A DNA stretch of 64,000 nt from Acidobacteriota bacterium. Lineage in GTDB: Bacteria > Acidobacteriota > Holophagae > Acanthopleuribacterales > Acanthopleuribacteraceae. Position numbers and translations under genes: made by a program. The notes beneath the pieces were generated by a model that saw only the letters and a program-made list of their open reading frames with translations, was not told the DNA's origin and did not search any database. Shown piece by piece: positions 16,934 through 32,198 of the stretch (its first letter is position 1; the number at the start of each line of letters is the position of its first letter). The stretch covers positions 1 to 64,000 of the forward strand of contig JAGQSC010000019.1 of assembly GCA_020439745.1 (NCBI GenBank). Direction: 5' to 3'.

Positions 16934-18736
16934 CTAGTGTGCCGATTCACTTTGAGGCGGATGATGAATGAGCCCCGGCACCATGCTCGCTAATGACGAG
17001 ATCCAGTGCAAAGGCCCAGACCGCCACATGCTTGCCAACGCCAACAGACCCATCGCCGAAAGCGTGATCCAATCCCACCACCTCAAATGGTGTTCGTGTA
17101 ATTCCAGAAAGTCGAGGTCAGTTGGTTGATAAAAGATGTTTACTAAAACGCCAAACACCACAGCAACGGCCAATGCTAATGCGGCCAGTTTCAACCCCTT
17201 CCCTTCACCAAACACCTTGTTCACGGTCAAGATAGTCGATATGTTGGTGGCCGGACCGGCAAACAAGAATACGAGCACTGCACCCACCGAAAATCCGTGC
17301 TGCAACAAAACCAACGCAATGGGAACCGATGCCGAGGCGCACACGTAAAACGGTATGCCAATCACGCCAAGCAGCACAATGTCCCAGTGACCAAACGGAT
17401 TCTGTACCGACTGCACGGGCCACAGCACTTGAGCCAAAGCCGCAGCGATCAAACCAAAACAAATCAGTGGGAAAATGTCGTCGACCAGATCCACAAACGC
17501 GAATCGCCACCAACTTACCGGCGCGGATTCCGCATTCTTCTTGGCACAGCAACTCTTTTCCTGCTCTACGTTTAAGGGTGTGCCGAGCCAAGACACTGCC
17601 AACATAGCGATCGCCACGGGGAGGACGATGGCTGCGATCAATCGCACAATGGAGAATTCCCAACCCAACAGCTTCACAGAAACCAAGAAGGAGTCCACGC
17701 CCAATTCTGGAGTAGCCACCAGAAATGCCACCAGGGCCGCTGTGGGCAGACCCTTTTTCGACAGGCTCATAAACAACGGCAACACGCCACAGGAGCAGAT
17801 GGGTAATGGGAGCCCAAACAACATGCCCTTAGCTGCTTGCTTCAAGGGACCACCCCGGTTAAGCCAGGCAACAGGCCTCTGTGGCATATAGGCGTGTAAC
17901 AAACCGGAAATAATCAAGCCAAGCAGCAAGTAGGGCGCGGTTGCTTGCAAAAGTGCCACAAAAGCCGCACCGAATGACAAAGACGGCGAACCATGCGCGT
18001 GTAGATGAACATCGCTATCACCCAGGTAGGACTGGGTCACCGCGAAAATCACGAGTCCGGCAAAAAAAGCCCCAAACTCCCAGTTACGGTCCACACGCCG
18101 ATGCGCATGAAAGTCGATGAAATCATGGATCAACAAATGAACAAATGAACCGGCAATCAGCGCATAGGCCCCGTTGACCACCACCGAGTCAAGTAAGAGA
18201 CCAAGCCAGGATGCGCCCAACGCCCCAACCACGGTGGCGCCACCCATCGCGGCAAGTCGCACCCAAGCGCCGCGTTCGTTTTTTTCTCGCAAAAAAAGCC
18301 ACATGATAATTGCAGCAACGGGGATACGATGCGCAATCACCATTAATGCCATGGGCAAGTCGTCAGCCAGTGATGACGAAGCCAAGGCAAGACCTACACC
18401 ATCAGTGAGTTGATGCAGGAGCAGGCCTATCCAAAGCATTTCGGCCGTGAAGAACCTTGAATTCCCGTCGGTCGCATGGTGACCCGAACCGGGCAACAAA
18501 CGCTCAAATGCGACCATGATCAAGAACCCGAGACCCGCCAACACAAGGCTCAACGGGCCAAGTCGTTCGTAAGCTTCTGGTAGCAAATGGACCAGCAACA
18601 AGGCGCCAAAGAAACTGGCCATGAGTCCTTTCAAGGCGGCGATACCCCAACCGTGCGAACTCATCAAACGTGCAAACAGCCCGCCCACGGGCAAAGCGAC
18701 CAGGCTGGCCAAAATCAGAATGGTGATTGATGTCAT
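16934..18736 (-). CDS. fusion of ZIP-type transporter and ArsP/SO_0444-type permease
   Basis: 600 residues, about 16 membrane helices. Residues 1-230 are ZIP-like: HLLPEAYE near 50, HQLTDG (H108, D112) and AHRIP (H136). The last motif is normally HEhP, so a key metal-site Glu is Arg here. A His-rich linker (DVHLHAH, about 243) leads to a DUF318/YraQ permease with PLPICSCGVLP (C314, C316), ATPELGVDS and a Cys pair (C396, C397), as in the SO_0444 Cu/Zn efflux group. The family exports metal or arsenic species. I chose ATG 18736, which shares one base with the gpmI stop (TGATG), over ATG 18763. The fusion is unusual. Substrate and direction are inference. Confidence 0.85.
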   Translation of the reverse strand: MTSITILILASLVALPVGGLFARLMSSHGWGIAALKGLMASFFGALLLVHLLPEAYERLGPLSLVLAGLGFLIMVAFERLLPGSGHHATDGNSRFFTAEMLWIGLLLHQLTDGVGLALASSSLADDLPMALMVIAHRIPVAAIIMWLFLREKNERGAWVRLAAMGGATVVGALGASWLGLLLDSVVVNGAYALIAGSFVHLLIHDFIDFHAHRRVDRNWEFGAFFAGLVIFAVTQSYLGDSDVHLHAHGSPSLSFGAAFVALLQATAPYLLLGLIISGLLHAYMPQRPVAWLNRGGPLKQAAKGMLFGLPLPICSCGVLPLFMSLSKKGLPTAALVAFLVATPELGVDSFLVSVKLLGWEFSIVRLIAAIVLPVAIAMLAVSWLGTPLNVEQEKSCCAKKNAESAPVSWWRFAFVDLVDDIFPLICFGLIAAALAQVLWPVQSVQNPFGHWDIVLLGVIGIPFYVCASASVPIALVLLQHGFSVGAVLVFLFAGPATNISTILTVNKVFGEGKGLKLAALALAVAVVFGVLVNIFYQPTDLDFLELHEHHLRWWDWITLSAMGLLALASMWRSGPLHWISSLASMVPGLIHHPPQSESAH

Positions 18737-20358
18737 CAGGGCACCAGCAAGGATGGGCGCCATCCGGCCAATGGATTTACACCCAATAACTCAGTCACGG
18801 TGGCTGCCACATTACTGAGTGCAAGCGACGGCTCCTGTCGCAAGCAGCCTTTTACCTGACCATGAGGGTCAAACAGAATAAAGGGCACGCGATTGAGTGT
18901 ATGGGATGTTTTCACGAGCCGGTTGCCTTGCTCGTCGAGTTTGATGTGGCCGACCGCATCCATCTCAAACATCTGTTCCGCATTACCGTGATCGGCCGTG
19001 ACCAAAGCCACACCGCCAGTTGCTTCAACAGCTGCTAGTACCCGGGCCAATTCCAAATCCAAGCAAGTCATGGCTGCAATGGTAGCTTGAAGATTGCCCG
19101 TATGGCCGACCATATCGCCATTGGCATAATTCACACGTAAAAAGCGGGAATCGCCGTTTCGAAGCTCCCTGATCATGGCGTCGCTAATTTCTGCCGCCTT
19201 CATCCACGGCCTCTCTTCAAAGGGCACTCGATCGGAAGCCACCTCGACAAAACATTCCAGAGACGGTGCCGTAATTCCGGACCGATTCCCGTTCCAAAAG
19301 TAGGTGACATGTCCATACTTTTGCGTTTCTGAAATCGCAAATTGGGCCAACCGCGCATCGAGCAAACACTCGGTTAAAGTGCCATCGATCCTTGGTGGGC
19401 CCACCAGGTATTGCTTGGGTATGCACAGATCCCCATCGTACTGCATCATGCCCGCATAGAACACTTTAGGTACGCGCTTGCGATTGAAGGCCGTGAACTC
19501 GGGGCCAGACTCAAAAGCGCGACTGATCTCCAGTGCGCGATCCCCGCGAAAATTGAAAAACACCACACCATCCCCATCTTGGATGGTGCCAACGGGGCCG
19601 TGTTCATCCACAATCACAAAGCCGGGCAGAAACTGATCGATTACCCCGGGCTGCTCGGACCGCAATGCTTCCACAGCGGTCCTGGCGTCTTTGAACCCTC
19701 GACCTTCGCCGAGCACGTGATGCTCCCAACCACGTTGGACCATGTCCCAGTCGGCTTCATAACGATCCATGGTCAAAACCATGCGACCGCCGCCGCTGGC
19801 AATACAAATATCGAATCCCGCCATACGCAGGGCCGTTAATTTCCGCTCCAAACGATCCAAGTAGAGGTGAGCAGTCGTCTCGCCTACGTCCCGTCCATCG
19901 AGCAAAACGTGTAATCGAACCGCGTGAACTTTTGCATCGTGGGCACCATCGATCAGCGCTTCCAGATGATCGATGTGTGAGTGCACATTGCCGTCCGACA
20001 ACAATCCGATCAAATGTAAGGTTCCCTGGCTTTGGCGAAGTTGGTCAGTCAAAGCGCGCCAAACTGGTCCCTCAAAAAGCGAGCCGTTTGCAAAGGCCTG
20101 GTTAACAAGTGATGCGCCCTGATCAATAACTTGACCCGCGCCGAGCGCATTGTGACCCACCTCAGAATTGCCCATATCACTGTCGCTTGGCATACCTACC
20201 GCTTTACCGTGAGCAGCCAGAGTCGTCATCCGGCAGGAGGCCATCAGACGGTCCAAGGTTGGTGTGTTTGCCTGCTGAAAGGCATTTCCTTCGCGGTAGG
20301 GCGAAAGACCGACACCGTCCATAATGATCAACGTCAGTTTTCCGGAAATCTTGCTCAC
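18736..20358 (-). CDS. gpmI: 2,3-bisphosphoglycerate-independent phosphoglycerate mutase
   Basis: 540 residues. It interconverts 3- and 2-phosphoglycerate in glycolysis using two metal ions. D14 (IIMDGVG) and the nucleophile S65 (MGNSEVGH) are present, with an alkaline-phosphatase-type C-terminal half ending in VTADHGNAEQM. The length is close to the usual 510-550. GTG 20358 follows GGGGG and the stop of the previous gene; in-frame ATGs at 20379 and 20385 would overlap that gene and add up to nine residues. It is coupled to the metal-transporter gene downstream by a one-base overlap. It sits in the valS operon. Confidence 0.94.
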   Translation of the reverse strand: MSKISGKLTLIIMDGVGLSPYREGNAFQQANTPTLDRLMASCRMTTLAAHGKAVGMPSDSDMGNSEVGHNALGAGQVIDQGASLVNQAFANGSLFEGPVWRALTDQLRQSQGTLHLIGLLSDGNVHSHIDHLEALIDGAHDAKVHAVRLHVLLDGRDVGETTAHLYLDRLERKLTALRMAGFDICIASGGGRMVLTMDRYEADWDMVQRGWEHHVLGEGRGFKDARTAVEALRSEQPGVIDQFLPGFVIVDEHGPVGTIQDGDGVVFFNFRGDRALEISRAFESGPEFTAFNRKRVPKVFYAGMMQYDGDLCIPKQYLVGPPRIDGTLTECLLDARLAQFAISETQKYGHVTYFWNGNRSGITAPSLECFVEVASDRVPFEERPWMKAAEISDAMIRELRNGDSRFLRVNYANGDMVGHTGNLQATIAAMTCLDLELARVLAAVEATGGVALVTADHGNAEQMFEMDAVGHIKLDEQGNRLVKTSHTLNRVPFILFDPHGQVKGCLRQEPSLALSNVAATVTELLGVNPLAGWRPSLLVP

Positions 20359-20368
20359 GTCGCCCCCA

Positions 20369-20824
20369 TCAGTACCCATACCCATCGCCCCATTGAGCCT
20401 GCCATAGCAACCAGCGACCTTGTTCTTGTCGAAACGTCAGGTAGAATTCGGCTTTGTCCTTAGGCAACAGACCTTCACCGGTAAGTACCAATAGACGTGC
20501 ATCGTAGACGGCCGGATTGGTGGTTGAGGTGATGTCGAGATTCACCTTGGAGATCGCAATCGTCGGGTGACGCAAAAATATGGCTCGCACGATGCGCAAA
20601 ACATCGTCTTTGGGTCGGTTGGATTCGTCTCTGAAACTGGGGCTGACGTGGTCTTCAAAGGGATCGATATCCTTGGCTTCCGCGCCTTCAATCATGGCGT
20701 CAATCGCCGCTTCAATGGCAGCTTCGGGGGAATCAGGATTCGATTTGAGGGACATATAGCCGATACCGAGGATCACCAGTATCAGCACAAAGGCCGATTG
20801 TTTTTGGCGGTTACTCCATGTCAT
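20369..20824 (-). CDS. membrane-anchored NTF2-like protein
   Basis: 151 residues. One N-terminal helix (SAFVLILVILGIGYMSL) anchors a periplasmic domain that begins with SPEAAIEAAIDAMIEGAEAK and ends with GRWLLWQAQWGDGYG, the usual start and finish of an NTF2-like/DUF4878-type cone fold. No catalytic residues are evident. Its ATG overlaps the stop of the AlbA_2 gene by four bases (ATGA), and gpmI begins 10 bases after its stop, so it is a true operon member. The function is unknown. Confidence 0.72.
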   Translation of the reverse strand: MTWSNRQKQSAFVLILVILGIGYMSLKSNPDSPEAAIEAAIDAMIEGAEAKDIDPFEDHVSPSFRDESNRPKDDVLRIVRAIFLRHPTIAISKVNLDITSTTNPAVYDARLLVLTGEGLLPKDKAEFYLTFRQEQGRWLLWQAQWGDGYGY

Positions 20825-21483
20825 CTGCGTTTCCAGACCACCGCAAGAGAATATTCGCGCCTCTTTTCATTGAAGAAGGCGTGGACCCAACCTCGTTGCT
20901 CCAAACCTACCAAGATGCGTTTGGCTCGATGGGTGGACACGTTGATGGATTTGGCAATTTGTCCCAGTGTTTGCCGAGGATGGGTATCCAGGTTATCCAG
21001 GATGCGTAACTCGGTTTTGTCGAGTTCTCCCACATGATCCTCAACGGGTTCACTGGTGACCTTGCTCATGTTTTTCAGGCTCTTGCGGTCTAACGGTAGG
21101 TTCTCGCGATCGGAACGGAAGTAGGGCCATTTATCGTCCGAGCGATTGGGGTCCACGGCGTAAACGGGTTTCAATGCAGCTTCAGGGACTTGGACCACCA
21201 ACACATTGACGCCTTTCATGGGCTCCCAGAAGTCCGCTTTGATCTTCACGGGTGGATCACAATAGAATCCGCTGACCTGCTGCACCAATTCCAAAGTTCC
21301 CTTGGCATTCTCCAGGCCAACGATTTCCCCTTCATCGTCGATTCCCATAAAGATCGTGCCACCGCTGGAATTTGAAAAAGCCGAAAGGGTGCGTGACAAG
21401 CGTTTGAGCTTGGGGCATTGTCTTTTGAATTCAACCTGAACGCCTTCTCCACGTCTGACCATATCCGACCATTTCTTGGCCAT
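20821..21483 (-). CDS. AlbA_2-domain (Schlafen-type) winged-helix regulator
   Basis: 220 residues. The AlbA_2 domain (about 8-115) shows GVQVEFKRQCP, then LSAFSNSSGGTIFMGIDDEG, the family's signature for a putative nucleic-acid or nucleotide-binding fold. A C-terminal winged helix (about 155-215) has LDKTELRILDNL and INVSTHRAKRILVGLEQRGW. Such proteins are usually called transcription regulators, some being Schlafen-like. The ATG follows the valS stop with no gap (TGAATG) and its stop overlaps the next start by four bases. Its position invites the guess that it regulates this operon or responds to translation stress. Confidence 0.85.
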   Translation of the reverse strand: MAKKWSDMVRRGEGVQVEFKRQCPKLKRLSRTLSAFSNSSGGTIFMGIDDEGEIVGLENAKGTLELVQQVSGFYCDPPVKIKADFWEPMKGVNVLVVQVPEAALKPVYAVDPNRSDDKWPYFRSDRENLPLDRKSLKNMSKVTSEPVEDHVGELDKTELRILDNLDTHPRQTLGQIAKSINVSTHRAKRILVGLEQRGWVHAFFNEKRREYSLAVVWKRR

Positions 21484-31307: not shown

Positions 31308-32198
31308 TTGTTTCACCAACGAACAGCCGCCATGGTGGCTTCGGTTACGGCGCTTGTACTGGTTACGCTTAAGTTAGGCGTGGGTTTTGCCACGGGTACG
31401 CTGTCCCTGCTGGCCAGCGCAGCCGACTCCGCATTTGATTTGATCATTTCGCTGTTCAACTATTTGGTCCTAAAGACTTCCGATAAGCCCAGCGACGAAG
31501 ACTACAACTACGGCCGCGGCAAACTGGAAGCCCTTGCAAGTATCGTAGAAGGCTTGATCATTTTCGCCTCCGCCCTGGTGATCATGGTATCTGCCATCAA
31601 GCGACTCATCGTCGCGACGCCCTTACAGCAAGTTGACATAGCTACCTGGACCATGGGCTTTTCGTTGGCTGCCACTGTGTTTTTGGTTCTTTACCTGAAT
31701 CATGTAGCCAAGTTGACTAAGAACATGGTGATTGAAGCAGATGTGCTGCACTACAAGGCCGATCTATTGAGCAACAGCGGTATCCTCATTGCCTTGGTTG
31801 CAGTGCAGTACACCGGCTGGACATCCATCGATGCCATCGTTTCGATCGGTGTGGCTGGATACTTGGTATACGCCACGATTCCATTAATCCGCAAAGGGTT
31901 CCATATGATTATGGACCGTGCGCTTAGTCCAGATATCGTGCAGACCATTCGAGAAATTATGGAATCTGAGCCCGGCCTGAACAGTTTCCACGAATTGCGC
32001 ACACGCCAAAGTGCCGGGATCCACTTTGTCGACGTACACTTGGTGTTTACGCGCACCATTAGTTTGCTCGATGCCCATACCATCGCCGATCGGATTGCTG
32101 CTAAAATACGAGAGATTTCGAACTGCCGCTGGATGATCAATATGCACATGGATCCAACGGACGACTCAAAAAAGGAGTCGAATCTAACAAAAATTTAA
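31308..32198 (+). CDS. cation diffusion facilitator metal efflux pump (FieF-like)
   Basis: 296 residues, six membrane helices and a cytoplasmic C-terminal domain. The helix 2 metal ligands are D40 and D44 (SAADSAFD) and helix 5 gives H148 and D152 (HYKAD). This DD-HD set is the FieF/YiiP type that exports zinc or iron by proton exchange. The C-terminal domain has HELRTRQSAGIHFVDVHLVF. TTG 31308 has AGGG only 3 bases before it, and ATG 31332 would cut into helix 1, so the start is uncertain. A hairpin CGACTC..GAGTCG lies in the last codons. Confidence 0.9.
   Translation: MFHQRTAAMVASVTALVLVTLKLGVGFATGTLSLLASAADSAFDLIISLFNYLVLKTSDKPSDEDYNYGRGKLEALASIVEGLIIFASALVIMVSAIKRLIVATPLQQVDIATWTMGFSLAATVFLVLYLNHVAKLTKNMVIEADVLHYKADLLSNSGILIALVAVQYTGWTSIDAIVSIGVAGYLVYATIPLIRKGFHMIMDRALSPDIVQTIREIMESEPGLNSFHELRTRQSAGIHFVDVHLVFTRTISLLDAHTIADRIAAKIREISNCRWMINMHMDPTDDSKKESNLTKI

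Follow-up and report, generated by a model that had tools for sequence, protein, structure and literature searches.

The stretch of DNA analyzed here (the window) comprises 64,000 nucleotides of contig JAGQSC010000019.1, from an Acidobacteriota bacterium of the family Acanthopleuribacteraceae, and carries on its reverse strand a gene (16934..18736) that encodes a ZIP-like unit and an SO_0444-type permease in one chain of 600 aa. The gene starts at the ATG at 18736 (protein MTSITI...) and ends with the stop codon at 16934-16936, within a single frame that runs uninterrupted over 16934-18763 (609 aa) and offers a possible in-frame upstream ATG at 18763. The earlier note on this DNA had proposed a fusion of the two families, and its proposal is borne out by the single open frame with both domains assigned; the motifs it listed (HLLPEAYE, HQLTDG, AHRIPV, PICSCGV and a CC pair) all lie where it placed them. 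A congener encodes the fusion as well, at 70% identity to the window protein, which excludes the frameshift or sequencing error that the note had named as its own possible undoing.

The ATG at 18736 overlaps by one base (TGATG) the stop codon of a gpmI-like gene located upstream on the same strand (18736..20385), whereas the corresponding overlap in the congener is ATGA. The gene order valS, SLFN_AlbA_2, small gene, gpmI and fusion is kept in the congener and in no other of 94 flank sets, and the only flank set in which gpmI adjoins the fusion is again that of the congener. Of the suggested coupling to a metal-dependent gpmI enzyme, the one-base overlap thus stands, and the wider link finds no support outside the genus: because the arrangement is confined to the genus, the metal dependence of gpmI says nothing about the fusion family. 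The SLFN_AlbA_2 protein encoded between valS and gpmI (20824-21483) contains a winged helix and is also conserved in the congener.

Positions 31332-31913, some 13 kb away from the fusion, encode a Cation_efflux (CDF) domain, the sole one found in the genome. Searches of the same genome detected no ZnuA, no second Zip match and no second ArsP_1 match, and the congener likewise has no ZnuA. Among 396 genomes sampled from the window's phylum, ZnuA is present in 183, and it is present in 12 of 20 carriers of the fusion; on these counts, we rejected the absence of ZnuA as a sign of replacement by the fusion, and its absence from the window genome proves little, since over half of the sampled phylum also does without it.

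Fold and metal site of the ZIP-like half

The first half of the protein (aa 1-238; 18023..18736, reverse strand) is too divergent for direct assignment. Pfam Zip (PF02535) goes unreported when the window protein is searched alone and, in a search of its own genome, where it is the sole Zip match, reaches 20.8 bits (E 4.5e-4), below the curated cut-off of 35.1; among 49 fused relatives, 19 are matched by the same model with E values no higher than 0.1, the best being 7.1e-10. Since the Pfam match on the window protein is this weak, the assignment rests on relatives, on a profile-level match to E. coli ZupT and on structure. In hhalign, a profile built from fused proteins and their stand-alone relatives is collinear with ZupT at 97.6-98.5% probability (E 5e-12 to 2e-14). 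AlphaFold2 models the whole protein with pLDDT 85.1 and pTM 0.83, and the ZIP half alone with pLDDT 87.7 and pTM 0.83, the latter showing the eight-helix ZIP fold. When this modelled half is compared with solved structures, the ten top Foldseek matches are all BbZIP (E 1.1e-4 to 3.6e-3, the next match at 0.19), with modest TM-scores of 0.4-0.56 and rmsd of 6-8, and in VIA-align the eight leading rows are again BbZIP (Z 9.5-11.8, with an rmsd of about 5 across 197-216 residues, the next row at 6.4), making BbZIP the sole solved structure well above background. The first half is therefore a divergent ZIP by three independent lines; an alignment showing otherwise, which the earlier note had allowed for, did not materialize, as the half is collinear with ZupT and models as BbZIP. 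A sequence search of solved structures gave no match at all for A4, L057 and L058, and the CD1 matches of the window protein were spurious. With no useful sequence match to a solved structure, residue numbering was taken from the ZupT alignment and from the names of BbZIP mutants in the literature.

In BbZIP, according to PMC11549095, H177 and E211 lie within site M1, site M2 is formed by N178, D208 and E240, and the transport site is M1 and not M2. When aligned to the window protein, H177 corresponds to His108, N178 to Gln109 and the acidic TM4 ligand to Asp112, with His136 opening the TM5 motif. The TM4 motif HQLTDG (aa 108-113; 18398..18415, reverse strand) thus keeps His and Asp at the positions equivalent to H177 and to the acidic TM4 ligand, which we take to be E181, with Gln at the N178 position. 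In the TM5 motif HRIPV (aa 136-140; 18317..18331, reverse strand) the His is kept, but the M2 residue equivalent to D208 is Arg137 and the M1 residue equivalent to E211 is Val140. The ZupT alignment places Thr168 (18233..18235, reverse strand) at the TM6 Glu position, equivalent to E240 of M2, and TM7 contributes HLLIHD (aa 200-205; 18122..18139, reverse strand). The canonical M1 set is consequently incomplete (His108, Asp112 and His136 are present, Val140 replaces the Glu) and the M2 set is absent (Gln109, Arg137, Thr168). Read from the alignment, the putative metal site of the ZIP half is one with M2 erased, one M1 ligand gone and a TM7 His fixed. The TM7 segment with H200 and H204 would correspond to H275-E276 of BbZIP, residues to which PMC9873690 assigns a role in the release region.

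This pattern is close to invariant in the family. Among 79 relatives, H108 is kept in 78, D112 in 79, H136 in 79, R137 in 77, T168 in 78, H200 in 79 and H204 in 68, and V/I140 in 78, although the conservation of Val140 is partly built in, as the scan for relatives used two peptide patterns, one with PVGL. H108, D112, H136, R137 and H200 lie outside both patterns, and all five positions (with D or E at 112) are kept together in 77 of the 79. The earlier note had described the replacement of an M2-site Glu by Arg. The altered M2 position stands, but Glu is not universal there: BbZIP has Asp, ZupT has Asn and another ZIP has Glu, so that the replacement of a Glu holds for the class of site and not for all ZIPs. 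Moreover, the Arg also occurs (as HRIPEG) in stand-alone ZIPs belonging to this class in which the remaining motifs are kept, so it is no mark of the fusion; the family-specific step lies in losing the M1 Glu and gaining the TM7 His. The change of the M1 Glu to Val140, which the note did not list, is at least as important as the Arg change, and could impair transport. By inference, Arg137 may possibly act as a built-in counter-charge to Asp112.

In comparison with the ZIP family (SLC39, PF02535; BbZIP and E. coli ZupT), the fusion family shares the eight-helix fold, the collinear alignment, TM4 HxxxD/EG, TM5 HxxP and the loop charge pattern, and differs in its M2 ligands (replaced by Gln or Ala, Arg and Thr), in the M1 Glu (Val or Ile), in the invariant TM7 His and in the fused permease.

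Linker, permease half and topology

The two halves are joined by a linker (aa 239-256; 17969..18022, reverse strand) with three His in DVHLHAHG, modelled with low pLDDT over residues 243-251. Across 81 fused-length proteins, His makes up 16.9% of linker residues versus 5.1% overall. In the Psychromonas marina fusion (L087:5974-8307), the linker region reaches about 199 residues with 54 His, and other Psychromonas linkers are long too. Positive charges are concentrated in four loops (TM5-6, TM7-8, permease-entry and CC), and the TM4-5, TM6-7, linker and TMd-HP2 loops have few or none; following this charge pattern, the ZIP half is predicted to lie in the membrane in the usual orientation, with a periplasmic linker and with both the CC loop and the C-terminus on the cytoplasmic side.

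The second half (aa 257-543; 17108..17968, reverse strand) matches PF03773 (ArsP_1) at E 7.2e-30 and 104.6 bits, above the gathering cut-off of 32.3, over aa 268-542 of the 609-aa frame. The NCBIfam SO_0444 model (NF033936) gives E 1.2e-68 and 231.9 bits, short of its equivalog cut-off of 300, and by these profile matches the permease half is closest to NCBI's SO_0444 Cu/Zn efflux family. With that family, placed within ArsP_1, it shares a whole-domain match and the PxCSCG, YVCA and GPATN motifs: PICSCGV, the permease CxC motif (aa 312-318; 17783..17803), YVCASAS in the second permease repeat (aa 464-470; 17327..17347) and GPATNIS (aa 494-500; 17237..17257), together with the CC pair (aa 396-397; 17546..17551) in the loop predicted to be cytoplasmic, all on the reverse strand. 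Modelled residues 249-543 match carriers of the ion-transporter fold at Z 10-13, with ArsB at Z 13.1 (rmsd 4.9, 262 residues aligned), and in the models both halves resemble elevator-type carriers. The SO_0444 family includes UxC selenoprotein forms (PMC13188914). The aligned span of a match to the permease half in L023 (G369:C103:68822-69835) runs through two stop codons, a TGA and a TAG.

Distribution, origin and regulation of the family

In the 396 genomes of the window's phylum, whole-protein matches occur in 180, mostly to the permease alone, and matches to the ZIP-half profile in 82; the fused forms are patchy in this phylum and distant from that of the window (about 28-33% identity). 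A scan of GTDB genomes yielded 209 confirmed relatives, and analysis of the best 80 of these uncovered the further two-family chains that the earlier note had suggested seeking, in Acidobacteriota, Gemmatimonadota, Latescibacterota, Binatota and Pseudomonadota. Counting direct matches to the permease half of the window protein, at least 59 of these best 80 loci are fused, a lower bound given that several loci, L119, L120, L148 and L154 among them, were scored as stand-alone yet belong to the 49-member alignment; every one of its 49 members is matched by the SO_0444 model with E no higher than 0.1, and 46 by ArsP_1. The 80 loci are distributed over Gammaproteobacteria (54), Alphaproteobacteria (1), Gemmatimonadota (11), Acidobacteriota (7), Latescibacterota (3) and Binatota (1), with 3 unplaced. 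Two of them, L077 and L107, are recorded as Acidobacteriota and are contigs already present, as L003 and L039, in the sample of the window's phylum; the former was left out of the counts over 79 relatives and the latter kept in. Plasmid records gave 14 permease-only matches and no fused form. The observation of a fusion is thus right, and more general than the window alone shows.

The two halves are unevenly preserved. The permease CSCG is kept in just 25 of the 79 relatives, and in Gammaproteobacteria its position reads PICIPDA, PVCSPSA and similar, or is absent (Shewanella); by sequence, the ZIP half is the more conserved part of the fusion. Complete stand-alone genes of the HRxPV ZIP type number five (L111, L116, L124, L129 and L137), and ZIP-like frames below 300 aa number eight, with L109, L125 and L156 cut by the end of their sequence stretch. 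Stand-alone ZIP-like genes adjoin CDF genes in L064 and L065. A permease tree of 57 rows took in 16 stand-alone permeases, drawn from the 23 permease-only loci of L006-L030 and all belonging to the phylum of the window. In it the fused forms group together (SH-aLRT 93) and apart from these 16, with the exception of the long-branch L015. This grouping disfavours separate origins and makes a single origin of the fusion likely. In the ZIP-half tree, which has many weak forks, stand-alone HRxPV genes are nested among the fused, consistent with later loss of the permease. The pairing of ZIP and permease is ancient and widespread, and we found no published description of such a fusion in the open-access library searched.

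Genomic context is mostly uninformative in this family. Clustering of the neighbours in 94 loci revealed lineage-specific gene orders only, the Pfam domains of 83 genes flanking 24 loci with an intact permease included no common metal gene, and most members have no metal-related neighbours. Acanthopleuribacter pedis harbours two fused copies (L079 and L149), the first with divergent imelysin and di-haem oxidoreductase genes upstream.

The gamma-proteobacterial Zur box is given as GAAATGTTATANTATAACATTTC in PMC2706843 and PMC4219657. Scanning for its core in the best 80 of the 209 relatives (857,413 bases) returned 40 sites at three mismatches or fewer, 34 of which, including all 16 at one mismatch or fewer, fall within the 400 nt before the ZIP domain, which make up 3.7% of the bases. 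With a leave-one-out matrix, 29 of the 80 loci score 16 or more and the next 9.7, and the box outscores every other site of its locus in each of the 29. As controls, the E. coli znuA-znuC region has a box with two mismatches, and in six carrier genomes sites at one mismatch or fewer also occur beside ZnuA-family genes, 123 nt before one of them in G396 and elsewhere up to 2 kb away. All but one of the boxed loci are Gammaproteobacteria (28 of 29). One box directly precedes a stand-alone ZIP-like gene (L124); a decayed-looking box stands at the same place in three Shewanella loci (L127, L146 and L148), and neither Shewanella nor Neiella has a good one. The scans detected no Zur box for the window, nor for members from Acidobacteriota, Gemmatimonadota or Latescibacterota, the best site in the window having four mismatches and lying at 2580, far from the fusion gene. 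The 26 CSCG loci are all unboxed and the 29 boxed loci all lack CSCG, an anti-association that is confounded with phylogeny owing to the gammaproteobacterial make-up of the boxed set.

Searches for Fur, ZntR/MerR-like, CueR and generic palindrome boxes revealed no enrichment before the genes, and no shared palindrome was seen before those of non-gamma members. The Neiella homologues (L092 and L110) lack a Zur box but have, some 100 nt ahead of the ZIP domain, the palindrome TTGAGAATTATTCTCAA, which we take to be Fur-box-like. The Kordiimonadaceae locus (L124:1939-5898) encodes a 705-aa protein in which an ArsP_1 permease is fused to a Band_7/SPFH domain; its gene is followed by two more SPFH genes and then by the stand-alone HRxPV gene. 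ArsR/SmtB-family regulators (L100:2087-2428 and L149:8015-8434) are encoded 56 and 86 nt downstream of two fused genes that keep CSCG, and the last helix of both regulators fits the alpha5 zinc motif DxHx10Hx2E (PMC8790569; residues in PMC1665450). Present in two of the 24 intact-permease loci, these neighbours are suggestive of zinc-excess control.

Interpretation of the fused protein

The reading we prefer, to which we would give an even chance, is that of a zinc-homeostasis transporter holding two carriers in one chain. The ZIP half would be an elevator-type ZIP of an HRxPV subfamily, with M2 lost and M1 rebuilt as His108-Asp112-His136 with a scaffold-side His200, that carries zinc, or a divalent ion like it, inwards; a periplasmic, His-bearing linker would join it to a second carrier, the SO_0444-type permease half of ion-transporter fold, which keeps its CxC in the window and probably exports Cu/Zn. 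Under Zur control, as in many Gammaproteobacteria, the gene would serve uptake, with a permease half that has lost CSCG or been shortened; with both halves intact in the window, both activities may be present. We infer the zinc substrate, the two directions of transport, the topology and the carry-over to the window protein, and the direction of the ZIP half, metal import into the cytoplasm, would follow solely from the Zur boxes of relatives. For the family, zinc uptake through the ZIP half is the function with the strongest support; where the permease motifs survive, export is the role most naturally ascribed to that half, and the window protein plausibly combines the two. The Zur box before the stand-alone gene of L124 suggests that the HRxPV subfamily works alone, though a separate ArsP_1 permease lies four genes away. 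Also counted in favour of zinc homeostasis are the window genome, with its lack of ZnuA and of any other Zip or ArsP_1 match, and the His-rich linkers and tails. On the other side of the balance are the CSCG loci, all unboxed, since the evidence for uptake therefore comes from members unlike the window protein in their permease half; the SmtB-type regulators, which point to zinc excess; the stand-alone relatives beside CDF exporters in two loci; the prevalence of members with no metal-related neighbours; the missing box of the window, of the non-gamma phyla named above, of Shewanella and of Neiella; and the lost M1 Glu. With respect to znuABC, the Zur-regulated uptake system, the gammaproteobacterial relatives share the box that also marks ZnuA-family genes in six carrier genomes, but the fusion is an elevator-type carrier rather than an ABC system and the window has yielded no box.

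The SmtB-type neighbours of two intact-permease relatives, the intact permease motifs of the window and the altered M1 and M2 sites would also suit a Cu/Zn efflux permease with the ZIP-like half as auxiliary metal sensor, chaperone or gate, as would the requirement for SO_0444 in Shewanella under Zn or Cu stress (PMC3219624). The earlier note had suggested a sensor or chaperone, drawing on the Arg, but we consider this account unlikely: the Arg also occurs in stand-alone ZIPs and affects a site that is not the transport site of BbZIP (PMC11549095), the ZIP half outlasts a permease that is degenerate or gone (77 of 79 relatives versus 25 of 79), and the ZIP type occurs in five stand-alone genes and under Zur boxes in 29 of 80 loci, one of them stand-alone. 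Persistence of the ZIP half also weighs on the proposal that it transports nothing and provides a fused scaffold or dimerization platform for an elevator-type permease. ZIPs dimerize through scaffold helices (PMC9873690), both halves resemble elevator carriers and the M1 Glu is lost in 78 of 79 relatives; yet the conserved residues are the His, Asp and His of the transport site and not scaffold positions only, stand-alone forms exist and the permease half is lost more often than the ZIP half, leaving this proposal decidedly improbable.

A substrate other than zinc (Fe, Mn, Ni, Co or Cu), with both halves active, draws on the imelysin and di-haem genes beside the A. pedis homologue, on the Neiella palindrome and on the broad substrate range of ZIPs; it has to contend with the Zur boxes of 29 relatives, with the alpha5-type zinc-sensor neighbours of two others and with the His-rich linkers, and we hold it to be quite unlikely. 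That the fusion is an artefact, by frameshift or assembly error joining two genes or by a first half that is not a ZIP, could appeal to the silence of Pfam Zip on the window protein alone, but the 70% identical fusion of the congener, the fused state of at least 59 of the best 80 related loci and the ZIP fold make it negligibly probable.

Set beside the known efflux family, the fused permeases split from the 16 stand-alone permeases of the same phylum (L015 excepted), and the window protein has a subthreshold SO_0444 score. For the family at large, we tentatively propose a history that is rather doubtful in its entirety: a widespread HRxPV class of zinc importers with no binuclear site would have been born joined to a Cu/Zn exporter, placing inward and outward zinc carriers in one polypeptide. 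Later divergence would have affected both regulation and the permease half, leaving marine Gammaproteobacteria with starvation control and a decayed exporter, and other members with excess-type control and an intact one.

If the two-carrier zinc reading is true, a ZIP subfamily that works with neither M2 nor the M1 Glu would constitute a natural experiment on the ligands required by an elevator-type zinc carrier, and opposite carriers would be found paired in one chain. The NCBI model would name such proteins by efflux or leave them as permease; as many of them seem to be zinc-starvation genes, their annotation may mislead on the direction of transport.
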